NCBI GenBank assembly: GCA_009885955.1
Contig: VFJS01000059.1
Location: 1 to 60,857 of the forward strand
Length of the DNA stretch: 60,857 bases
From: Spirochaetia bacterium
GTDB lineage: Bacteria; Spirochaetota; UBA4802; UBA5550
Reading direction: 5' to 3'
Shown here: positions 13,109-28,331 of the stretch, one piece after another
Position numbering within the stretch: position 1 is the first letter of the stretch
How the letters are laid out: every line of letters begins with the position of its first letter
Notes under the pieces: generated by a model
Database searches by the model: none
Told to the model about the DNA's origin: nothing
Seen by the model: only the letters and a program-made list of their open reading frames with translations
Made by a program: the position numbers and the translations under genes

Positions 13109-16100
13109 TTAAAATATCCAGAAATATTTATTTTTCACTTCTCCCTTGTATTCAACGCGTTTATACAGACCTTTCAGTACGGTAGTTTTAATGAAATCAG
13201 TTTCAGACTCAACTTCATGCTCCCATAAAAGCCCCCAGAAGCTTCCAATGGAATGGTAGCCCCTCTCCGGGCTTCTCACTTCATTAAACAGGGTGCCCAG
13301 AAGTATCATCCTCCGGTCTTCCTTTGCCGGAATATTATTGTTCCGGTAATAGAGGAGGCCCAGGACGCCCAGGTCAAAATCCCCGTTCTTGTCTTTGCTG
13401 AAATATGAAAGGGTCACGGGGCTCACACAGTACCACCCCCGGGATTCATCATGATACTTCTTGTAATACCAGAGGGGGAATATATAGTTTTTATAGAACC
13501 TGCTGTTATTCTCCAACCCTGAAAGTCCCAGGGCAAAGTAGTGGTCATAATATCCGGTTTTGGTGAATTTTTCATAGCTCATGAGAGCGCCCCAGAGTAG
13601 CCTCATCCTTGTGAGTTCCGGGCTTGATTCATATTTTATTGAATGAAACAGCAGCCCGTAGGAATCAAAATCCCGGGAGTTATATCTTTTATGGTCAAAG
13701 ATATACAGCAGGTTCTGCCTTTCATAGTCCTTTGATGTATACCAGTAGGTTCCAAGGATCACTTTCGTATCCTCATTATTTGCGCCCCAGTACCTTACAT
13801 AAAAGGGGAAGACCCAGAGGTTGTCCCAGTTGCCGTTCTCCTTTTCAAAATCGATAAAGAGGAGGACGTTTGTATGGCTCCTGGTTTTATCTGCGCTGGT
13901 GTAAAAGAATGGAAGAAAGAAGGTCCGCGAGTATCCAGGCGATGATTTCCAGTCTATGAGGCCCAGCAGGTTCCAGTGGGTACTATCCTGTGTGGCATGC
14001 CTGTAAACAAGGGGTATGATGGGAAACCAGAAGGTCGATGAAAAGGCAGTTTTCCCCCCGTCCTCAAACTCTTCATATTTTTTGTACCAGAGGGTTACAT
14101 GTTTTGAGTAGGAATATTTTTTCTTCAGCCCCTCGTTGCCGTTGTAGTAATAGAGGGGGATAAACCATGAAGTATGGTCTTTCACTTCCACAGCGCTGAA
14201 ATTTGTAATCCTGTCGGAAACGGTTTCATATGATCTGCTAGTATAGATCAGCCCCCAGAATAACTTCCATGACGAGTGGCCCATTTCCATCATCATTGGA
14301 TTTTGCTTCTTTGCAGGCTCAAGGGATTCATACTTGTAAAGTCCCATGAGAATTGAGAATTCAAAGGCAGATTGCGAGTTATAGTAATACGTCAGCGGGA
14401 GCAGCCAGAACCTGGTACTCTCCTTTGTGCTGGCATGCCTGATAAGCCCCCACAGAAGCTGGTGCAGGGTATCATCGGTGGAAGCATTGTAAGTATTTCT
14501 GTACAGGCCGAAGAAGAGGCTGTTCTCGGTTACATCGGATGTCCTGTCGCGGTAAAAGCCCAGGAGGAAAAACGTGTAGTCTTTCCGGTAACCGGTATCG
14601 GCCTTTTTATCATCCCTTTTACTCTTTATATCCAATACTTTATCTTCATCATTTGAAACTGATTGACTCAGGCTGGAATAATAGAGGAACGGCAGGCCGT
14701 ACATGGAGAACTCTTCGCGCCTTTTGCCCGACAGTGAGACCTCGGTTTTTTCGCTCTTATAGGCCAGGGGGAAAAACCATTTTCTGTCCGTAGATTCATA
14801 TTGAATCAGGGAATCGCTTCTGCCGCCGCTTTTTATCATGCTATTGCTCACATCCTCGGGAGCATTCGTCCTTTCATGCCTCAGGTGTCCGAATATCGGA
14901 AGGATTGCAGGGACAAAACTCCTTTCATAGGTGGAATCGCCTTCAATCGACATTTTTGAATGATATACCGGATTTAATACAAATTTATACAGGTCCACAT
15001 TCCCCGATTCATCGGTCTTGTAGCGGCTGTAGTGAATGGGGCTGATGAAAGTGCTGGCAAATGCGCCCTTGCCGGAATATTTTTTCCTCCACATGAGGGG
15101 GAATATCCTCCAGCCGCTTCTCTTAGGCGAAGAGTACCAGTTGAATACAGGCCACAGGGCAGTGACCTCGGTCTCTTTTTCATCATCATCGTACTCATAC
15201 CAGAAGACATTGAGGAGAGCGGCATATTTATATGATTTCTTCACAACCTGGTTTCCAAAAAAGGGGAACACAACAAGATAACTGGAATCGCCCTCCTGCG
15301 ATCTATAGGATACAATGGGCACGGGAAGTGGTATTACAAAGAGCTTATCATCTGAGTCCTTGTCCCAGGTGAGCCAGCCCAGGGGTATGAGGCGCAGGTG
15401 CCTTTTCGTATCCGCCCTTTCATAGGCAAACCATCCGAAAATCAGCTCAAACCCGAAGAAAAACCTGGAATTGTCCCGGCTGACTTCGGTTTTCTTCCCG
15501 ATTTCAGGGCCTTTTATCTTATCAGGCTTACTGTCGTCCACCTTCAGCTCTTCAGTCAATTTTTCCTGGTTCTCAAGATCGGTTACCCTGATGTCGGCCT
15601 TTTTCTTAAAGGGATTTGTTATGGTAATGCGGTTGGACAGGCTTACAATATTATAGAGCCAGGATAAATCTGTATCAAAATACCAGTCCCCTTCAATCCT
15701 GCCGAAATCCAGGGAAACACCTGGCGTAAAGGGGTTGATGGCCGCTGTCTTGCTGAAGCCGAGTATGTTGAACCTTACTGATTTTTTTTCATCCTCCCAT
15801 CTGAACTGCCAGGGGACGCCGGCGATGTTGTAGTGAATCAGCCTCTCCTTTGTTTTCCATGAAAGATAAAATGGAAGGAGATGGGTGTAGTAGGTGCTGC
15901 CTTTCAGGTTGTCACGGTTGTAGTAGAGCCAGGCCCAGGTAACGTTTTTCTCTGGAGACCACGAGTTGTAATGGAAAAGCCCCCAGGAGAAGCCCCGCTC
16001 CTCAGTCCAGCCTGCCGGGCGCATGTAGAAGGGGATGTAGTGCCTGTATCCCCCTTCGCCGCTCTTCCTGAAAACAAAGGGGAAAAGCCAGAATCGTTCC

Positions 16101-18514
16101 ACGGAACCGATCATGTCCTCCTTCCAGTCCAGGATCCAGGCGATGTTGTAGTGCGTCCCTTCATTGCTTTTGGATTTATAATAGAGCGGGATGATGGGGG
16201 CCCAGAACCGGGACTGCACGGATTCGCCATCCCATTTCTCCCCGCCCCTGGTTTTGTCAAGGCTCACAAAGAGCGGAGATATGATGCTGTCGCTGTAGGT
16301 TCGGTCGTATTTCTGGGTCTTGTAGTTATAGGTATCGGTAATCTTTTTATTCCTCATGAAAAAGGGGAAAGCATGTATGTAATAATCTCCCTCCCTGTTC
16401 CTGTCCCAGACAAAGAGGGGCGGAAACACGTGCGTGTAGCCCCTGTCGCCGGGTTTGTAAAAGAGGAATGGCATTGCCCATAGACGGTACAATTCATTAC
16501 CCTGTTCCTTTTTTCTCCATGCCAGGTCTATGAGCCACAGGGCATTTACATGGGTCTTCCCGGGCTCTGTATGATAATAGAAAAGAGGAATCAGCGGCGC
16601 CCAGAAAGTTGAGTTATAAGGCTTCTCATCCCACTTCTTATCCCCCTTGTAATCATTAAAACTCGCGTAGGCAAGGGATACTACCGAATCGGAGTACCCC
16701 TTCTCATATTTCCGTGATGCTGAATTATATGTGCTGTCAATGCTTTTCCAGCTCATAAAAACAGGGAGGCCATGCATATAGTACTCGCCGGTTTTATATC
16801 TATTATATATATAGACCGGCGGCAGTACATGGGTATAGCCGTTATCTCCGGGTTTGTGAAAAACAACAGGCATCAACCAGAACCGGTAGAGTTCATCGCC
16901 CTTCTCCTTTTTCCTCCAGGCCAAATCAATGAGCCACAGGGCATTGACATGGGTCTTCCCGGGCTCTGTATGATAATAGTACAGGGGAATCAGCGGCGCC
17001 CAGAGGGTTCTGCTTTCCGGATTGTCTTCCCATTTTTTCACCCCGCGGTAATTTTTAAAATCCGCAAAAAGAGGCGACATGAATGAATCTGAATAGACTT
17101 TCTCATTTTTCCTGGTTTTATAGCTATACTCGGTGTCGCTGCTCTTCCAGCTCATGAATAGCGGCAGGAGATGTGTGTAGTACTCTCCTGTTTTATACCT
17201 GTTGTTAACAAAAACCGGCGGAAGCACATGGGTATAGCCGTTATCCCCAGGTTTATGAAAGAGAAATGGCATCACCCAGAACCGGTAGAGTTCATCGCCC
17301 TTCTCCTTTTTTCTCCACGCCAGGTCTATGAGCCACAGGGCATTGACATGGGTCTTCTCAGGCTCTGTATGATAATAGTACACCGGAATAAGCGGGAACC
17401 AGAAGGTCCTGCTTACCGGTTTTTCATCCCATTTTTTCTCACCCTTATGAACGGTATAATGGCTGAAAAGAAGGGAGAGGAATGAGTCATAATACGTGGT
17501 GTCCGATTTCTCAGTCTTATAATTATATTTATGATCTATGCTCCTCCTTGACCATAAAAGGGGCGGCAGGAGGTGCCAGTAATACTCCCCTGAAGGCCAC
17601 CTGAGGCTCAGGTGGACAGGCGGGATTACATGGGTATAGCCGTCGGGCCCGGCCCTGTGAAAGAAAAGAGGCATGAGCCAGAACCTCTTCAAGCTCCTTT
17701 CATCATCTTTCCGGTTCCATGAAAAATCCAGTGCCCACAGAAAATTCACATGCCCCCTATCCGGGGATGAATGGTAGTAAAAAAGCGGAATTACCGGGAA
17801 CCCGAAAGTTGTGGTGTCGATCTTTGAATCGGCCGTGGAATTAGAATTATAAAACCATAAAGGCCATATATTGAAGGTATTGGAATATGAAGAACCGTTA
17901 AACGTATTTGTGGTCTGCCTCCAGTAAAAGAGCAGGGGGTAGATTGCAACTTTTGATTTTTCATAGCCTGTTTTAACATTCTTATTAATGCTCCTGTTAA
18001 ATAAAGGATATATCCCATAATAGGAATTATTAATGCCGTCATTTTTATTATCAGTACTCCCCCACCAGATAAGGTAAAGAATCGACCGGTCCTTTTCAGT
18101 TTCTGTAAGGCTGGAGTAATAAAAGGGGACATGTACGGTCAGTTCTCTGGCACCGTCTATCCTGTGATAATAATAGAGACCGGGCCACAAAAAGCCCCAG
18201 GTCTTTTCCCTGTTATCCAGCTTGCTTTTGATTGAATAGTAAAATGGGAGAACATAGGTTCTTGAATAATTGGGATAATCGGAGTATTTGAAAAAGGATA
18301 ATATCATGCAGGAGTAATGATCTGCCCACTGTTCCTTTTCACCGAAGGGGCCCATGTTTACCGGGAACTTCTCCTCCTTTTCGCTCCCGTAGACCTTTTT
18401 CTCGCCTTCGAAGAGATCAGACCAGTCCTCCTTTCCGGCTCCGGCTCCAAAAAGGGGCAATGCAACCATGGAAATGAGAAAGACAGCAGCTGTAAATCTG
18501 AATAAATTTTTCAT
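13109..18514 (-). CDS. Giant exported aromatic-rich repeat protein (1,801 residues)
   Basis: I do not recognise this family. Residues 1-24 (MKNLFRFTAAVFLISMVALP, then LFGA) are a signal peptide. The mature protein is made almost entirely of short beta-strand-like units rich in Trp, Tyr and Phe, repeatedly of the form W-x-P-L-x-P-L-Y-Y-Y or LWGLxxYxS. Residues 237-769 hold four near-identical 133-134-residue repeats (see the repeat feature) and a fifth, partial copy follows. I count only two Cys. The C-terminus ends GLYKRVEYKGEVKNKYFWIF, with an aromatic last residue as in many outer-membrane beta-barrels. A large barrel, beta-solenoid or cell-surface adhesin are all possible. The start ATG at 18514 has no strong ribosome site. 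The mltG gene follows. Confidence 0.85.
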   Translation of the reverse strand: MKNLFRFTAAVFLISMVALPLFGAGAGKEDWSDLFEGEKKVYGSEKEEKFPVNMGPFGEKEQWADHYSCMILSFFKYSDYPNYSRTYVLPFYYSIKSKLDNREKTWGFLWPGLYYYHRIDGARELTVHVPFYYSSLTETEKDRSILYLIWWGSTDNKNDGINNSYYGIYPLFNRSINKNVKTGYEKSKVAIYPLLFYWRQTTNTFNGSSYSNTFNIWPLWFYNSNSTADSKIDTTTFGFPVIPLFYYHSSPDRGHVNFLWALDFSWNRKDDERSLKRFWLMPLFFHRAGPDGYTHVIPPVHLSLRWPSGEYYWHLLPPLLWSRRSIDHKYNYKTEKSDTTYYDSFLSLLFSHYTVHKGEKKWDEKPVSRTFWFPLIPVYYYHTEPEKTHVNALWLIDLAWRKKEKGDELYRFWVMPFLFHKPGDNGYTHVLPPVFVNNRYKTGEYYTHLLPLFMSWKSSDTEYSYKTRKNEKVYSDSFMSPLFADFKNYRGVKKWEDNPESRTLWAPLIPLYYYHTEPGKTHVNALWLIDLAWRKKEKGDELYRFWLMPVVFHKPGDNGYTHVLPPVYIYNRYKTGEYYMHGLPVFMSWKSIDSTYNSASRKYEKGYSDSVVSLAYASFNDYKGDKKWDEKPYNSTFWAPLIPLFYYHTEPGKTHVNALWLIDLAWRKKEQGNELYRLWAMPFLFYKPGDRGYTHVFPPLFVWDRNREGDYYIHAFPFFMRNKKITDTYNYKTQKYDRTYSDSIISPLFVSLDKTRGGEKWDGESVQSRFWAPIIPLYYKSKSNEGTHYNIAWILDWKEDMIGSVERFWLFPFVFRKSGEGGYRHYIPFYMRPAGWTEERGFSWGLFHYNSWSPEKNVTWAWLYYNRDNLKGSTYYTHLLPFYLSWKTKERLIHYNIAGVPWQFRWEDEKKSVRFNILGFSKTAAINPFTPGVSLDFGRIEGDWYFDTDLSWLYNIVSLSNRITITNPFKKKADIRVTDLENQEKLTEELKVDDSKPDKIKGPEIGKKTEVSRDNSRFFFGFELIFGWFAYERADTKRHLRLIPLGWLTWDKDSDDKLFVIPLPVPIVSYRSQEGDSSYLVVFPFFGNQVVKKSYKYAALLNVFWYEYDDDEKETEVTALWPVFNWYSSPKRSGWRIFPLMWRKKYSGKGAFASTFISPIHYSRYKTDESGNVDLYKFVLNPVYHSKMSIEGDSTYERSFVPAILPIFGHLRHERTNAPEDVSNSMIKSGGRSDSLIQYESTDRKWFFPLAYKSEKTEVSLSGKRREEFSMYGLPFLYYSSLSQSVSNDEDKVLDIKSKRDDKKADTGYRKDYTFFLLGFYRDRTSDVTENSLFFGLYRNTYNASTDDTLHQLLWGLIRHASTKESTRFWLLPLTYYYNSQSAFEFSILMGLYKYESLEPAKKQNPMMMEMGHSSWKLFWGLIYTSRSYETVSDRITNFSAVEVKDHTSWFIPLYYYNGNEGLKKKYSYSKHVTLWYKKYEEFEDGGKTAFSSTFWFPIIPLVYRHATQDSTHWNLLGLIDWKSSPGYSRTFFLPFFYTSADKTRSHTNVLLFIDFEKENGNWDNLWVFPFYVRYWGANNEDTKVILGTYWYTSKDYERQNLLYIFDHKRYNSRDFDSYGLLFHSIKYESSPELTRMRLLWGALMSYEKFTKTGYYDHYFALGLSGLENNSRFYKNYIFPLWYYKKYHDESRGWYCVSPVTLSYFSKDKNGDFDLGVLGLLYYRNNNIPAKEDRRMILLGTLFNEVRSPERGYHSIGSFWGLLWEHEVESETDFIKTTVLKGLYKRVEYKGEVKNKYFWIF
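16208..17806 (-). repeat. Four tandem 399-402-bp coding repeats in the giant protein
   Basis: The copies are 17405-17806 (134 codons), 17006-17404, 16607-17005 and 16208-16606 (133 codons each), encoding residues 237-769. Each begins FW-P-LIPLYYYH and contains HTEPGKTHVNALWLIDLAWR, KPGDNGYTHVLPP, YKTGEYY, YSDS and KKWDEKP. Copies 2 and 3 are also very similar at DNA level, which implies recent duplication or ongoing gene conversion. A fifth, diverged partial copy follows below 16208. Confidence 0.95.
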
Positions 18515-18795: not shown

Positions 18796-18916
18796 TAGAT
18801 TTACAAAAACAGAAAGATCTTGTACTCATGGAATTTTTGCCAGCCAAAAAAAAATTATTGACTTAAATATGATAATAACTTATTTACTATTAAATACTTT
18901 TTTACCAGGGGTTGTT

Positions 18917-19519
18917 ATGAAAATTGTTCACGTTTTAAAACGGATTGAGACCATAGATGAAGATATACGGGAACTGAGGAAAATGGAAAAGGGCCTGAAC
19001 AGGGACAAGGCCTTTTCCAAGGACATTTACATATCCATAGAAAAACAGATAAACATTCTGGTCAACGAAAAAGTGAAGCTCATGGAACTCAAGGTTGAAA
19101 ATCCCCCTGTGTCCCTGGTAGAGCAGATTGAAGGGGCCGCAGATGATAAGAATGACAAAGACAATGCAAGCAGATCAACCAAAAATATAAAAAAAGCAGC
19201 GGGAAAGTCCACAGGAAAAAAAATAGAAATCAATTCCATCGATGACATCCCCATGCTCACCCAGGACCAGATTGATGCAAAAATAAGCAGCATAAAAATC
19301 AATAAGCCCCAGGATAAGAGTAAAGATGAGGCAAAGACCAGGGATCATGCAAAGAGCAGTTCCCAGGAAAAAAAAATAAGCGCGGCGCTGGCAAATGATG
19401 ACCAGGGCATAAAAATTCTCGACACTGTACTTGAGCACGGTACCCTGAACAAGGATGAAATCGCAAAAACCAGGGACAGAAAGGTCAAATTTTTCAGGGA
19501 AAACTTTCCTGCCGAGTAG
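18917..19519 (+). CDS. Charged coiled-coil hypothetical protein
   Basis: The 200-residue protein is unrecognised. The first 65 residues are a long amphipathic helix (KIVHVLKRIETIDEDIRELR then KMEKGLNRDK), likely a coiled coil, followed by a low-complexity Lys/Asp/Ser region (about residues 85-150) and a short helical C-terminus. It has no signal peptide. I chose the ATG at 18917 because AGGGGTTGTT precedes it; an in-frame ATG at 18869 lacks a site. The 12-base string GGGGTTGTTATG also opens the DUF4404 gene at 30180. The gene is convergent with the adenylate cyclase gene, 12 bases away. Confidence 0.7.
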   Translation: MKIVHVLKRIETIDEDIRELRKMEKGLNRDKAFSKDIYISIEKQINILVNEKVKLMELKVENPPVSLVEQIEGAADDKNDKDNASRSTKNIKKAAGKSTGKKIEINSIDDIPMLTQDQIDAKISSIKINKPQDKSKDEAKTRDHAKSSSQEKKISAALANDDQGIKILDTVLEHGTLNKDEIAKTRDRKVKFFRENFPAE

Positions 19520-19531
19520 CAGCCGGAAAAA

Positions 19532-22258
19532 TTATTTATTGAGCCTGTCCATTATCAGCTCCAGCCTGTATTTCTCAAGGAAGAACTGGTTTGTTCCCCC
19601 TGAAAAATATCCCCTCTTATAATCTGAGAATTTAATTTTCCTGATAAAAGTGCCGGCCGCAAGTTCTTCATATGTTTTAAGGGTATCACCTATCCTGTTA
19701 AGCGGGAGCAGCTCCGTTGATTTATCATTGCTGAATATAATCCGGTAAAAATTTTCATTTGTCATAAAACTGGAAATTTCAACATCAAGAGCATTCTGAT
19801 TTATATTCCTTCCGAGGATGCTTTTCTCGATGATATCTGTTTCATAATCCGAGGTTATCTCCCCGTCCCTGTCTCTGTAGACCCTGAATACTGGAATGGT
19901 TGAATTGATGTCGGGAAAATACCGGAAGCTGTTCAGCTGGCCTATGGAATTCCTGGAAAATGTATAGAGTGAGGCAAGGGCCTTCTCTTTAAGGCCCGAT
20001 GGCCTGGCATAGGTAAACAGGTTCCCCCTCTCATTTATCAGATAAAGGAAAATATATCCCCCCTTCTCCTCATATACAATTGTGATATGATTCTTTTTTC
20101 CCCTGCTGATAATATAATCCATCAGCACCAGCTGCTCATCTTCTCCATAAAATCTGAATTTCATTTCAATTTTAGGTTTAAGCGACTGGTAGGTTAGAAG
20201 CTGTATGAAATATTTATAGGAATTAATTTCAATTCCGTTTTTGTCATCACGGGTAATGCAGTAATAGCTTTCATCCTGCCTTGCAATCATGGACAGGCAG
20301 GAGTTCCCCCCTTCATGCACAATGAACCCGTAGCTGTTCTGGAATAATTTCTCAATACTCCTGAAATACCTGCCTCCCTGCTGATTATAGACAACCGCCA
20401 TGAACCGGCTGAATGATTTGCCTGTTTTAATTCCATCCTCCAGGATACGCCGTAACATACTCATCAATTCCTGGCCCGAATCGTATTCATCGATGAATGA
20501 CTCCCCCCAGCTGGTGTGATAAATATGGTGGATCGATTTTATTTCATTCTGGTTCTCGGTATTAGAATTAATGATAATAAGGTTGACCAGGCTGAATGCG
20601 GGTTTTTGATAAAATTCATTGTTCAATGCCATATTATCATCGCTGAAAAGTTCCCAAATAGCGGTAAGCATATTTAACACATGGTTCTGGTCAAGCCTCT
20701 GGTACCCCGACTTTATCTTAACCCTGGAAAATTTCGGATCGAATATCCTGTTGATTGAAAGCCAGGCAAGAAGCTTCACCATGCTGGTTTCGGCTTTGAC
20801 AACGACCTGGGTAATTTCATCTTTGTCATTTGTCGCATTCTTAATATACTTCCATTCAGTCTCCCTGGTTCCCAGGCTCACCGGCTCAATATAAATTACC
20901 GATTCATAGGGAGTATCCTTGAAGGTTATATACTGGTCAATCTTATTCTCCCTGACTGAAAAATGCGTCTGAATTTTTCTGCTCAGGATCTGAAAATCGG
21001 TATCCGATATCTTCTCCTTTATATTCAAATTCGGAAGTTCCTTTGCTATCTTCTGGTAGCTGGAAAGAATAAATTTTTTCACGCCGTTCCAGAACAACAT
21101 GACCCTGGAGTAATCCCAGTTGTTGAAATTATCAAGTTCCCTGATCTTTTCCATCGGCCATTTCCATTCTCCGACATATTTGAACATGACCCTTACATTA
21201 TAGGGGAGATTTTTGCTTTCCCTGATTACGATATACTTTGAAAGATGGGGATTTATTTTCAGGTAGAGGTTTTCCCTCAGAATATTCAGGAGGTTGGCAT
21301 CCCTTCCGGCAGTGCTGTAATATTGATATACCTCCTCAAACATTTGAATGTATGAGTCAAGGATGTCATTATCAAAAACACCTCTCAGAATTTTTGTTTT
21401 TATCTTATGGCTCAGGAGGGGGGAATATTCCGACTCGAAGAGATATTTTTCCAGCACGCCTATTTTTATAATTGATTTAAAGGGATTTCCAAGCGATTTA
21501 ATAATCTGGAAAAGCACCGCCCCGAGGAATTCCTCCCTTGATATATCAAAAAGGTTGCCCAGGTCTATATATTCATTCTCCTTCATTTCATCAGTAAGGC
21601 TGTCATAGAGCCTGGCATATTCACTGTCTCCAATGAACCTCGGGATTACCCACCAGAAAGGGGTTAATCCGCAGATGATGATGGAACTCCTGAAAAATTC
21701 ATCTTTTAAAAGGGACCCCAGGGTGCTGCCCAGGGACTCACTCTCGGTATCGGCGAATTTATTTATTTTGATATTATCAATGTCGTTTATAAAAAAATTC
21801 ACTTCAACCCTGGACTCATCATTTACCCATTTTGTTATAAGACTTATTTTTTTCTCGAATTTTTCAAACTGTGCCGGCTTTATACTTTTTCGATACACGC
21901 ATATCCAGTAATCAAAATCAGATTTTTTGTTGTATGCTATTGTGCCGATGCTGCCCATCACTGCAAGAAGGCGGATTACAGGAGCCTTATATTCATATTT
22001 AAAGCTCCTGGTGCGGAACCTCCCCTGGAGAAATTTTACCGATTCGGCATCAGGTTCATAGTTCATGATCCCGTAAGGAACGTCACCCTCGACGAATCCG
22101 GGGATCTTCTTATCATTCACCGATAATAAAAGAGGTATTGAATTTATGATCCTTGCCACATTTTTATTGGGGAACAACTCCTGGAAACGCTCAAATTTCA
22201 GGCTGTTGTATTTTAAAAAATTTAATTTATTACTTGAAATAATTTCTGTAAAGGACAT
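19532..22258 (-). CDS. cyaA: Class I adenylate cyclase
   Basis: The 908-residue protein aligns with enterobacterial CyaA (about 850 residues). The nucleotidyltransferase signature is at residues 102-118, GSIGTIAYNKKSDFDYW, with two metal-binding Asp (114 and 116). Further N-terminal family blocks follow: GSTLGSLLKDEFFRSS and FWWVIPRF. The enzyme makes cAMP from ATP in the cytosol. The C-terminal half, about 450 residues, corresponds to the regulatory region and is diverged; I see no recognisable added domain. Class I cyclases are best known in gammaproteobacteria, so its presence here is notable. A cyclic-nucleotide-binding protein at 49372-50436 is a candidate receptor. Confidence 0.9.
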   Translation of the reverse strand: MSFTEIISSNKLNFLKYNSLKFERFQELFPNKNVARIINSIPLLLSVNDKKIPGFVEGDVPYGIMNYEPDAESVKFLQGRFRTRSFKYEYKAPVIRLLAVMGSIGTIAYNKKSDFDYWICVYRKSIKPAQFEKFEKKISLITKWVNDESRVEVNFFINDIDNIKINKFADTESESLGSTLGSLLKDEFFRSSIIICGLTPFWWVIPRFIGDSEYARLYDSLTDEMKENEYIDLGNLFDISREEFLGAVLFQIIKSLGNPFKSIIKIGVLEKYLFESEYSPLLSHKIKTKILRGVFDNDILDSYIQMFEEVYQYYSTAGRDANLLNILRENLYLKINPHLSKYIVIRESKNLPYNVRVMFKYVGEWKWPMEKIRELDNFNNWDYSRVMLFWNGVKKFILSSYQKIAKELPNLNIKEKISDTDFQILSRKIQTHFSVRENKIDQYITFKDTPYESVIYIEPVSLGTRETEWKYIKNATNDKDEITQVVVKAETSMVKLLAWLSINRIFDPKFSRVKIKSGYQRLDQNHVLNMLTAIWELFSDDNMALNNEFYQKPAFSLVNLIIINSNTENQNEIKSIHHIYHTSWGESFIDEYDSGQELMSMLRRILEDGIKTGKSFSRFMAVVYNQQGGRYFRSIEKLFQNSYGFIVHEGGNSCLSMIARQDESYYCITRDDKNGIEINSYKYFIQLLTYQSLKPKIEMKFRFYGEDEQLVLMDYIISRGKKNHITIVYEEKGGYIFLYLINERGNLFTYARPSGLKEKALASLYTFSRNSIGQLNSFRYFPDINSTIPVFRVYRDRDGEITSDYETDIIEKSILGRNINQNALDVEISSFMTNENFYRIIFSNDKSTELLPLNRIGDTLKTYEELAAGTFIRKIKFSDYKRGYFSGGTNQFFLEKYRLELIMDRLNK

Positions 22259-26726: not shown

Positions 26727-28331
26727 CTATTTTTTACGGTGTTTCTCCTGCCAGTCGGTGGGTGTCTCCTTCTTTACATTTTGAAAGGCCCGGTAAAATG
26801 TAGACAGGCTTTCGAATCCTGTTTCATACGCTATGTCAATGACCTTCATGTCCGTTGTAATCAGCTTATCAGCCGCTTCCTCTATCCTGAGTTCATTGAT
26901 GTAATCGCCAATTTTCATTCCTGTATACTGCTTGAAGAGTTTCCCGAAATAGTCATAGTGCATTCCTGAAAATTCCGCAAGACCCTCGCGGGAGATGTCA
27001 TCACGGAAATTTTCCTTGATGTATCCGATGGATTTATCCAGCTTTTCCCGGTTTTCATCGCTTATTGAGAATACACCCCGTCTCCTGTTATTGTATAGTT
27101 CAGCCGTTGCGTACAGCCTCGTAAAACGTTTCCGCATGATGAGTGCAGTGCCGATGATTATGACAATGAAACTGTAGGTTGACAGCCTCGCGGTACCGAT
27201 TATTCCCCTGTCGAAGAGCATATCATTGACGAAAACAATCCAGGCAACAATGAATGCAATGAGGAGATATTTTGCATCATTGACATTTTTATATTCCTTT
27301 ATGGATACGGCAAAGCAGTATCCGAAGGGGATGACCCACGAGGGTTCGACGAAATAAAAAAGAATATCGTTCCACAGGGGGATGCCGGGATTCACAATTA
27401 CTACAGTTGCCACTGTACCGGTAAATATATAATAGATGATATGCAGAGTCCTGTTCCTTCTCCCGTAATAATGGGAAATATACTCCATTGCAAAAAGGGG
27501 AATGAAAAAGAGTGCAAGGTACTCAATCCGTTTCAGGATGAAGAAATTGTCAAAAAGAAGATACTTTACCTGAGTTCTCAGAAAAAGATAGAGTGCTGTG
27601 AAAAAGGTGAAAAGGGAAAAGAAGAGATACTCCTTGTCAATGGATCGGGTAACGAATATGAGTGCAAAGTAGAGGGAAACGATGAGGTACAGGGCAATAA
27701 AAATGATATCCGGCATTTCCTCTGTCAAAAATTTTTTCTGCATAAGGGAATAATTGCCGATCCGGAAGATCCCCTTATGAGGACCGTTCTCATAGGGGAA
27801 GAGCCCCATAACCCGCAGGGCTATGACGTTATCACCGCCCGGGATGATGAGTTTCGTCGGTATTTCATAAATCCTTTTTTTATCATATGCCGATACCCTT
27901 CCGGGAGGAAAACTGCCGGTCCCTGCAACCAGCTTCCCATTGAAATAAAATTCATCAATGTCGGAAATGGTTCCAAGGCTTAATCCTGCCGATTGAACGG
28001 GCAGTTCCCCGGGGAATACAACATGAATCCTGTACCAGCATACCCGGGGATTCTCGGGAAAAAAATCGCGCCAGTTTGAAGGAAGGGAAACGGTTTTCCA
28101 GCCGGAATCGTTATATTTCAATCCGGCGTAATCGGGGCTGTCGCTGTTGGTTATCAGAATAAGTTTCTGATTCGTGAAATCAATTCCCTTGTCATAATCC
28201 TGAAGCAGGATCCCCGGAGCCTGATTGTCTGCATGGGCACCGGATTGCAGAATGAGCAGGAAAGTGAGAGAAACAAATAATAATTTTAGTGGAATAAAAT
28301 TTTTTTGATGCAGATTAATTATTCCCTTCAC
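26727..28331 (-). CDS. 7TM-sensor AraC-family transcriptional regulator
   Basis: The 534-residue protein joins three parts. A signal peptide (residues about 14-35) leads to a jelly-roll extracellular domain (GWKTVSLPSNWRDFF, VCWYRIHVVFP, FYFNGKLVAGTGSFPP). About seven membrane helices follow (residues 205-395), matching a 7TMR-DISM module. The C-terminus is an AraC-type DNA-binding domain with two helix-turn-helices (FSGMHYDYFGKLFKQYTGM and IDIAYETGFESLSTFYRAF). A ligand sensed outside would thus control a membrane-tethered transcription factor. The start is GTG at 28331 with no clear ribosome site. Its targets are unknown. Confidence 0.88.
   Translation of the reverse strand: MKGIINLHQKNFIPLKLLFVSLTFLLILQSGAHADNQAPGILLQDYDKGIDFTNQKLILITNSDSPDYAGLKYNDSGWKTVSLPSNWRDFFPENPRVCWYRIHVVFPGELPVQSAGLSLGTISDIDEFYFNGKLVAGTGSFPPGRVSAYDKKRIYEIPTKLIIPGGDNVIALRVMGLFPYENGPHKGIFRIGNYSLMQKKFLTEEMPDIIFIALYLIVSLYFALIFVTRSIDKEYLFFSLFTFFTALYLFLRTQVKYLLFDNFFILKRIEYLALFFIPLFAMEYISHYYGRRNRTLHIIYYIFTGTVATVVIVNPGIPLWNDILFYFVEPSWVIPFGYCFAVSIKEYKNVNDAKYLLIAFIVAWIVFVNDMLFDRGIIGTARLSTYSFIVIIIGTALIMRKRFTRLYATAELYNNRRRGVFSISDENREKLDKSIGYIKENFRDDISREGLAEFSGMHYDYFGKLFKQYTGMKIGDYINELRIEEAADKLITTDMKVIDIAYETGFESLSTFYRAFQNVKKETPTDWQEKHRKK

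Follow-up and report, generated by a model that had tools for sequence, protein, structure and literature searches.

What kind of protein is a giant, aromatic-rich, repetitive chain that a spirochaete appears to export, and how might such a chain be held in the cell envelope? The question is raised by a gene at positions 13109-18514 of the window, by which is meant the whole 60,857-nucleotide contig VFJS01000059.1 of a Spirochaetia bacterium (assembly GCA_009885955.1). The minus strand codes there for 1801 residues and the plus strand holds many stops, which bears out the open reading frame described in an earlier note and fixes its strand. The gene occurs once in the 4.77-Mb assembly (98% complete). 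Its product begins with a hydrophobic, signal-like stretch, so that the export proposed earlier holds as putative, and inspection of the translation by eye found no lipobox Cys in this signal region. Beyond residue 24, Phe, Trp, and Tyr make up 19.8% of the protein, which terminates in ...YFWIF with Phe as its final residue. The reading frame, repeats, family assignment, periodicity, turn alternation in the model, and one-unit indels discussed below were computed, and the fold was predicted. The features of the gene are the following.

13109..18514, minus strand: whole gene of the 1801-residue, putatively exported β-repeat protein of the LA_1737 family (open reading frame, translation, NCBIfam match)
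18443..18514, minus strand: signal-peptide-like N-terminal stretch, residues 1-24 (by eye from the translation)
17807..18442, minus strand: N-terminal conserved block, residues 25-236, with DWSDLxEGExxxYGSEKE, TDYPxY, and SKxDNR (alignment of 15 homologues)
17405..17806, minus strand: repeat copy 1, residues 237-370, which has diverged furthest among the four (protein anchors)
17006..17404, minus strand: repeat copy 2, residues 371-503 (protein anchors)
16607..17005, minus strand: repeat copy 3, residues 504-636 (protein anchors)
16208..16606, minus strand: repeat copy 4, residues 637-769 (protein anchors)
15617..16606, minus strand: AlphaFold-modelled segment, residues 637-966, a predicted one-layer meander with alternating turns (model)
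14945..16207, minus strand: single-copy family core, residues 770-1190, with the invariant RHxRLxPLxWLTWD (homologue alignment)
13115..13492, minus strand: C-terminal LA_1737 domain NF047486, residues 1675-1800 (93.4 bits, cut-off 60)

By its C-terminal match, the protein is a new member of the named, functionally undescribed LA_1737 family. Residues 1675-1800 (126 aa) score 93.4 bits against NCBIfam NF047486 (LA_1737_Cterm), whose cut-off is 60, and 93.5 bits when the whole genome is searched. The family takes its name from a Leptospira interrogans locus tag. The earlier statement that no known family applies is thus wrong as far as a name goes; neither an adhesin nor a barrel was matched in Pfam. 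Sequence searches of Pfam, PHROGs, and the PDB with the 1801-residue protein gave no match, and Pfam run over it together with 21 members returned a single non-significant, unrelated hit. The NCBIfam model names no function and spans only the C-terminal ~158 positions of the family; the protein shares with it the C-terminal ~130 residues and a Spirochaetota distribution, but carries four internal 133-residue copies outside the modelled region. Homologues span 814-2334 aa. Twenty of 21 also match NF047486, and an alignment of homologues reveals conserved blocks at the N-terminus (DWxDLxEGExxVxGSEKE), in the core (RHFRLLPLSWLTWD), and at the C-terminus. These homologues were recovered by an alignment-based scan of genome contigs; a back-translated single sequence searched against the contigs recovered zero relatives. 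Among the genomes searched, homologues are confined to Spirochaetota-type genomes and are patchy even there: of 59 near relatives 20 carry one, as do 59 of the 393 genomes searched across the phylum, and the related genus g4 yielded none. The NF047486 cut-off is exceeded in 47 of the 393 and in none of 14 control genomes. By name, the relatives are Spirochaetes, Spirochaetia, Leptospirales, Leptospiraceae, and Turneriella metagenome-assembled genomes, plus two records titled only "bacterium." Because presence is so patchy, the distribution argues for an accessory role. A tblastn search of plasmids with a Leptospiraceae-type homologue gave no match, and the open literature searched holds no mention of LA_1737 in Leptospira. 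LIC12048 was considered as its counterpart and rejected, since it corresponds to LA1762/LA1764 (PMC2387172); a vaccine paper (PMC5406399) is consequently irrelevant to LA_1737.

The most conspicuous internal feature is a 399-bp tandem array, reported earlier and detected by Tandem Repeats Finder at 16485-17438 (score 1118). Protein anchors resolve it into four copies of 133 aa, each comprising six units of ~19 aa, and the diverged fifth unit that follows copy 4 is part of the conserved family core. Copies 2-4 had been called highly alike, which holds for the 72 residues that open each copy (74-86% aa identity) and not for whole copies, whose remainder is less conserved and which share 59-71% identity in protein and 65-75% in DNA. 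The proposed recent amplification does not survive this comparison: the copies are not near-identical, and dS among copies 2-4 is 1.2-3.0 (NG86), with synonymous sites near saturation. dN between copies lies far below dS (dN/dS ~0.14 for copies 2-3). Together, these values point to an old array on which purifying selection acts. In the nearest relatives the 133-residue type of unit occurs once or twice, as opposed to four times here, so copy number does differ between genera. Tandem paralogues of LA_1737 type also occur in L062 (1138-7215 and 7344-11729; 2026 and 1462 aa), the longer of which contains near-repeated internal blocks (THGFLPFYHNES...-like) that look younger than the repeats described here.

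Beneath the 133-residue copies lies a smaller unit common to the whole family. Of ~19 aa, it consists of ~10 aromatic or aliphatic residues around a Pro followed by ~9 polar ones. Hydrophobicity autocorrelation takes positive values at 17-21 and 36-40 and negative values at 7-13, both in the 1801-residue protein (|z| up to 8) and in the family mean. Median unit spacing is 18-20 across the 21 homologues, in which 38-71 units were counted, compared with 79 in the present protein. When 458 Pro-centred motifs are superimposed, the profile has an aliphatic centre, an aromatic belt 2-5 residues out, and polar residues further out, and odd/even alternation was not found in it. Homologues can also differ in length by single units. 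Two homologues at 83% identity differ by the presence or absence of one 17-residue unit (TTSTRFILPVYFSSHSA), and single units of 17-18 aa distinguish the 1801-residue protein from its nearest relative.

What such a unit may look like in three dimensions is suggested by AlphaFold, which predicts residues 637-966 as an antiparallel one-layer β-meander (mean pLDDT 75.5; 236 of 330 residues at ≥70; 80-91 across most of the repeat part) with strands of 3-12, mostly 4-9, residues. An all-β chain with a regular repeat fold, on which the earlier reading depended, is thus predicted. The underlying alignments are shallow (21-23 rows; 23 for this segment, including other copies from the same protein), and the model of a 1092-residue homologue (L054) reproduces this meander of short strands with less confidence (pLDDT 57). 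As pTM is only 0.35-0.48, the models do not fix the long-range shape, be it flat, twisted, or rolled. The local order of the turns is striking. Along the 25 loops of the segment, polar turns (PG, EQ, PGDRG, NREGD, SGEGG...) and hydrophobic turns (LWL, MPF, FPPL, FPF, APII, LPF...) alternate strictly: with loops defined from the AlphaFold model itself, 13/13 on the polar edge fall below -0.5 on the octanol scale and 12/12 on the hydrophobic edge lie above +0.4 (p ≤ 0.00005).

These observations lead to a tentative proposal, to which we assign a little less than an even chance: the protein may be an exported one-layer β-ribbon docked along an envelope membrane by the hydrophobic tips of its hairpins. 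Some 80 hairpin units of ~19 residues would form a very long one-layer antiparallel meander. In each hairpin, an aliphatic/Pro turn (LPF, FPF, APII, LWL) flanked by Phe, Tyr, or Trp would be succeeded by a turn rich in Asp, Glu, Lys, and Gly, and because the two turn types alternate, one long edge of the ribbon would be hydrophobic and the other charged. The hydrophobic tips would dip into one leaflet, most likely of the outer membrane, and the ribbon would run lengthwise on the membrane as a monotopic comb whose polar edge faces the water. Since each unit would be a complete hairpin, units could be gained or lost singly or in blocks with topology unchanged, as may be exemplified by the block of six units (133 aa) that occurs four times here, rendering ribbon length evolvable. 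That the ribbon docks on a membrane, where it would reside, and whether it might serve as a scaffold or coat the surface are what we infer; alternatively, the hydrophobic edge might contact a partner or a second copy of the protein. Counted against the ribbon is its patchy presence (59/393 genomes, none in genus g4). As to the membrane itself, the host in all likelihood has an outer one, given its three Omp85 proteins. The same genome (G000) yielded no match to LptD (PF04453) or to a TonB-dependent receptor barrel (PF00593), which may reflect divergence or incomplete assembly.

A first rival is an integral outer-membrane β-barrel, whose end the earlier note thought the final Phe would fit: each ~19-residue unit would cross the membrane as one strand of ~11 residues, and the C-terminal Phe would be the BAM signal. 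The signal-like N-terminus, the xGIxF ending of many homologues, and the BAM-type machinery implied by the Omp85 proteins are all compatible with it, and an aliphatic centre between aromatic belts ~8 residues apart does fit a membrane-spanning strand. Parity is the principal obstacle: one-unit indels between proteins at 83% identity would flip every strand downstream. AlphaFold, moreover, splits each unit into two short strands, and the in/out alternation of a barrel strand is absent, the lag-1/lag-2 autocorrelation being +0.16/+0.20, whereas two of three Omp85 controls from the same genome alternate (-0.12/+0.12 and -0.05/+0.04) and the third, L091, is negative at both lags (-0.13/-0.09). The last Phe was correctly noted, but as a barrel end it is not universal: several members lack it, and of 19 homologues whose C-terminus is intact, ~11 have it. 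The Pfam search gave no barrel family, and ~80 strands would far exceed any single-chain barrel known to us. On indel parity, strand length, and autocorrelation against the Omp85 controls, a transmembrane barrel is unlikely, the least probable of the readings weighed here; the one-unit indels and the lack of Omp85-like alternation make the unit better read as a whole hairpin.

Two further readings retain the exported, non-barrel protein and assign its hydrophobic residues a different task. An extracellular surface-layer protein or adhesin, whose aromatic edge would bind glycans, surfaces, or its own copies rather than lipid, accords with export, aromatic richness, repetitiveness, a length that varies among genera, and an accessory distribution. 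It has a small chance of being right: Pfam matched no adhesin, Ig-like, or carbohydrate-binding family, the turns are aliphatic/Pro and not polar-aromatic binding loops, and the constraint on the repeats (dN/dS ~0.14, copies 2-3) is unlike that of a fast-diversifying antigen. Alternatively, the meander might curl into a rolled shell or a lipid-holding groove whose interior is lined by the hydrophobic edge, after the manner of YD/Rhs shells or bridge-like lipid carriers. An extended, long β protein in a diderm would suit such a role, and Rhs/teneurin shells, LptD, and ApoB are weakly matched in shape. This is improbable, however, as Pfam detects no YD-repeat, AsmA/TamB, or LptD domain, hydrophobicity resides on an edge and not on one face as in a taco groove, and the C-terminus consists of further hairpins with no enclosed cargo or toxin domain.

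Comparison with known structures places the predicted ribbon among proteins that resemble it by shape, with no relation in sequence, and at Z values that can arise from a common arrangement. One of them is Borrelia OspA, a free-standing one-layer antiparallel meander of short strands (best VIA Z 9.7, rmsd 10.9, 190 residues; Z 11 against the L054 model), where matches of rmsd 4-11 Å may reflect just such an arrangement. OspA differs in that no PDB sequence was matched and in that the 1801-residue protein has no lipobox Cys and is many times longer; to our knowledge, OspA also has no edge of hydrophobic turns. The L054 model (pLDDT 57) further resembles two long single-sheet meanders, the CPAP TCP10 G-box domain (Z 12) and the lipid-holding β-belt of ApoB-100 (Z 10), both eukaryotic and unrelated in sequence to the LA_1737 family. 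Rhs/YD-repeat and teneurin shells share hairpin repeats of ~20 aa and give weak Foldseek matches, but the 1801-residue protein has no Pfam YD repeat (RHS_repeat) and no shell-plug or toxin parts, and its motif is Pro/aromatic in place of Tyr-Asp. Foldseek matches of the full L054 model to teneurin, LRP2, and DDB1 were set aside as not meaningful (TM < 0.1), and the model of residues 637-966 found no covering match with a useful TM-score.

More broadly, and with greater reserve, it is possible, if rather doubtful, that LA_1737 proteins constitute a new structural class: giant one-layer ribbons tens of nanometers long, whose amphipathic character lies in their edges and not in their faces, and which would rest on a bacterial membrane with dozens of hydrophobic hairpin tips in one leaflet and a length that depends on how many hairpins there are. 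The family comprises very large exported spirochaete proteins whose function is undescribed in the sources searched. If true, the ribbon would exemplify the lengthwise membrane attachment of a very long protein by means other than lipid anchors, helices, or a barrel, the count of hairpins would serve as a simple evolutionary ruler, and a family named after a gene of a Leptospira pathogen would gain a testable hypothesis.

The genomic neighborhood offers little guidance. An MltG-like gene begins 5 bp downstream, from which a link to the wall or surface had been surmised, but mltG adjoins the homologue in none of the relatives. Their LA_1737-type genes adjoin differing genes, so no functional partner emerges from a conserved operon. 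Only the nearest relative (L031) keeps both a 216-residue gene and a class I adenylate cyclase gene beside its homologue. In the window, the divergently transcribed 216-residue protein (18869-19519; no Pfam or NCBIfam match) shares 53% identity with the ORF that occupies this position in L031, and the cyclase (19532-22258; PF12633 + PF01295) is 49% identical to its counterpart there. Elsewhere, the window encodes a fusion of an AraC-type regulator with a 7TMR-DISM membrane domain (26727-28331), and the contig ends (60574-60857) in a 102-bp tandem array of 2.8 copies (GTGTTATCCGTGGTTATTC...CACGGAAGTA).
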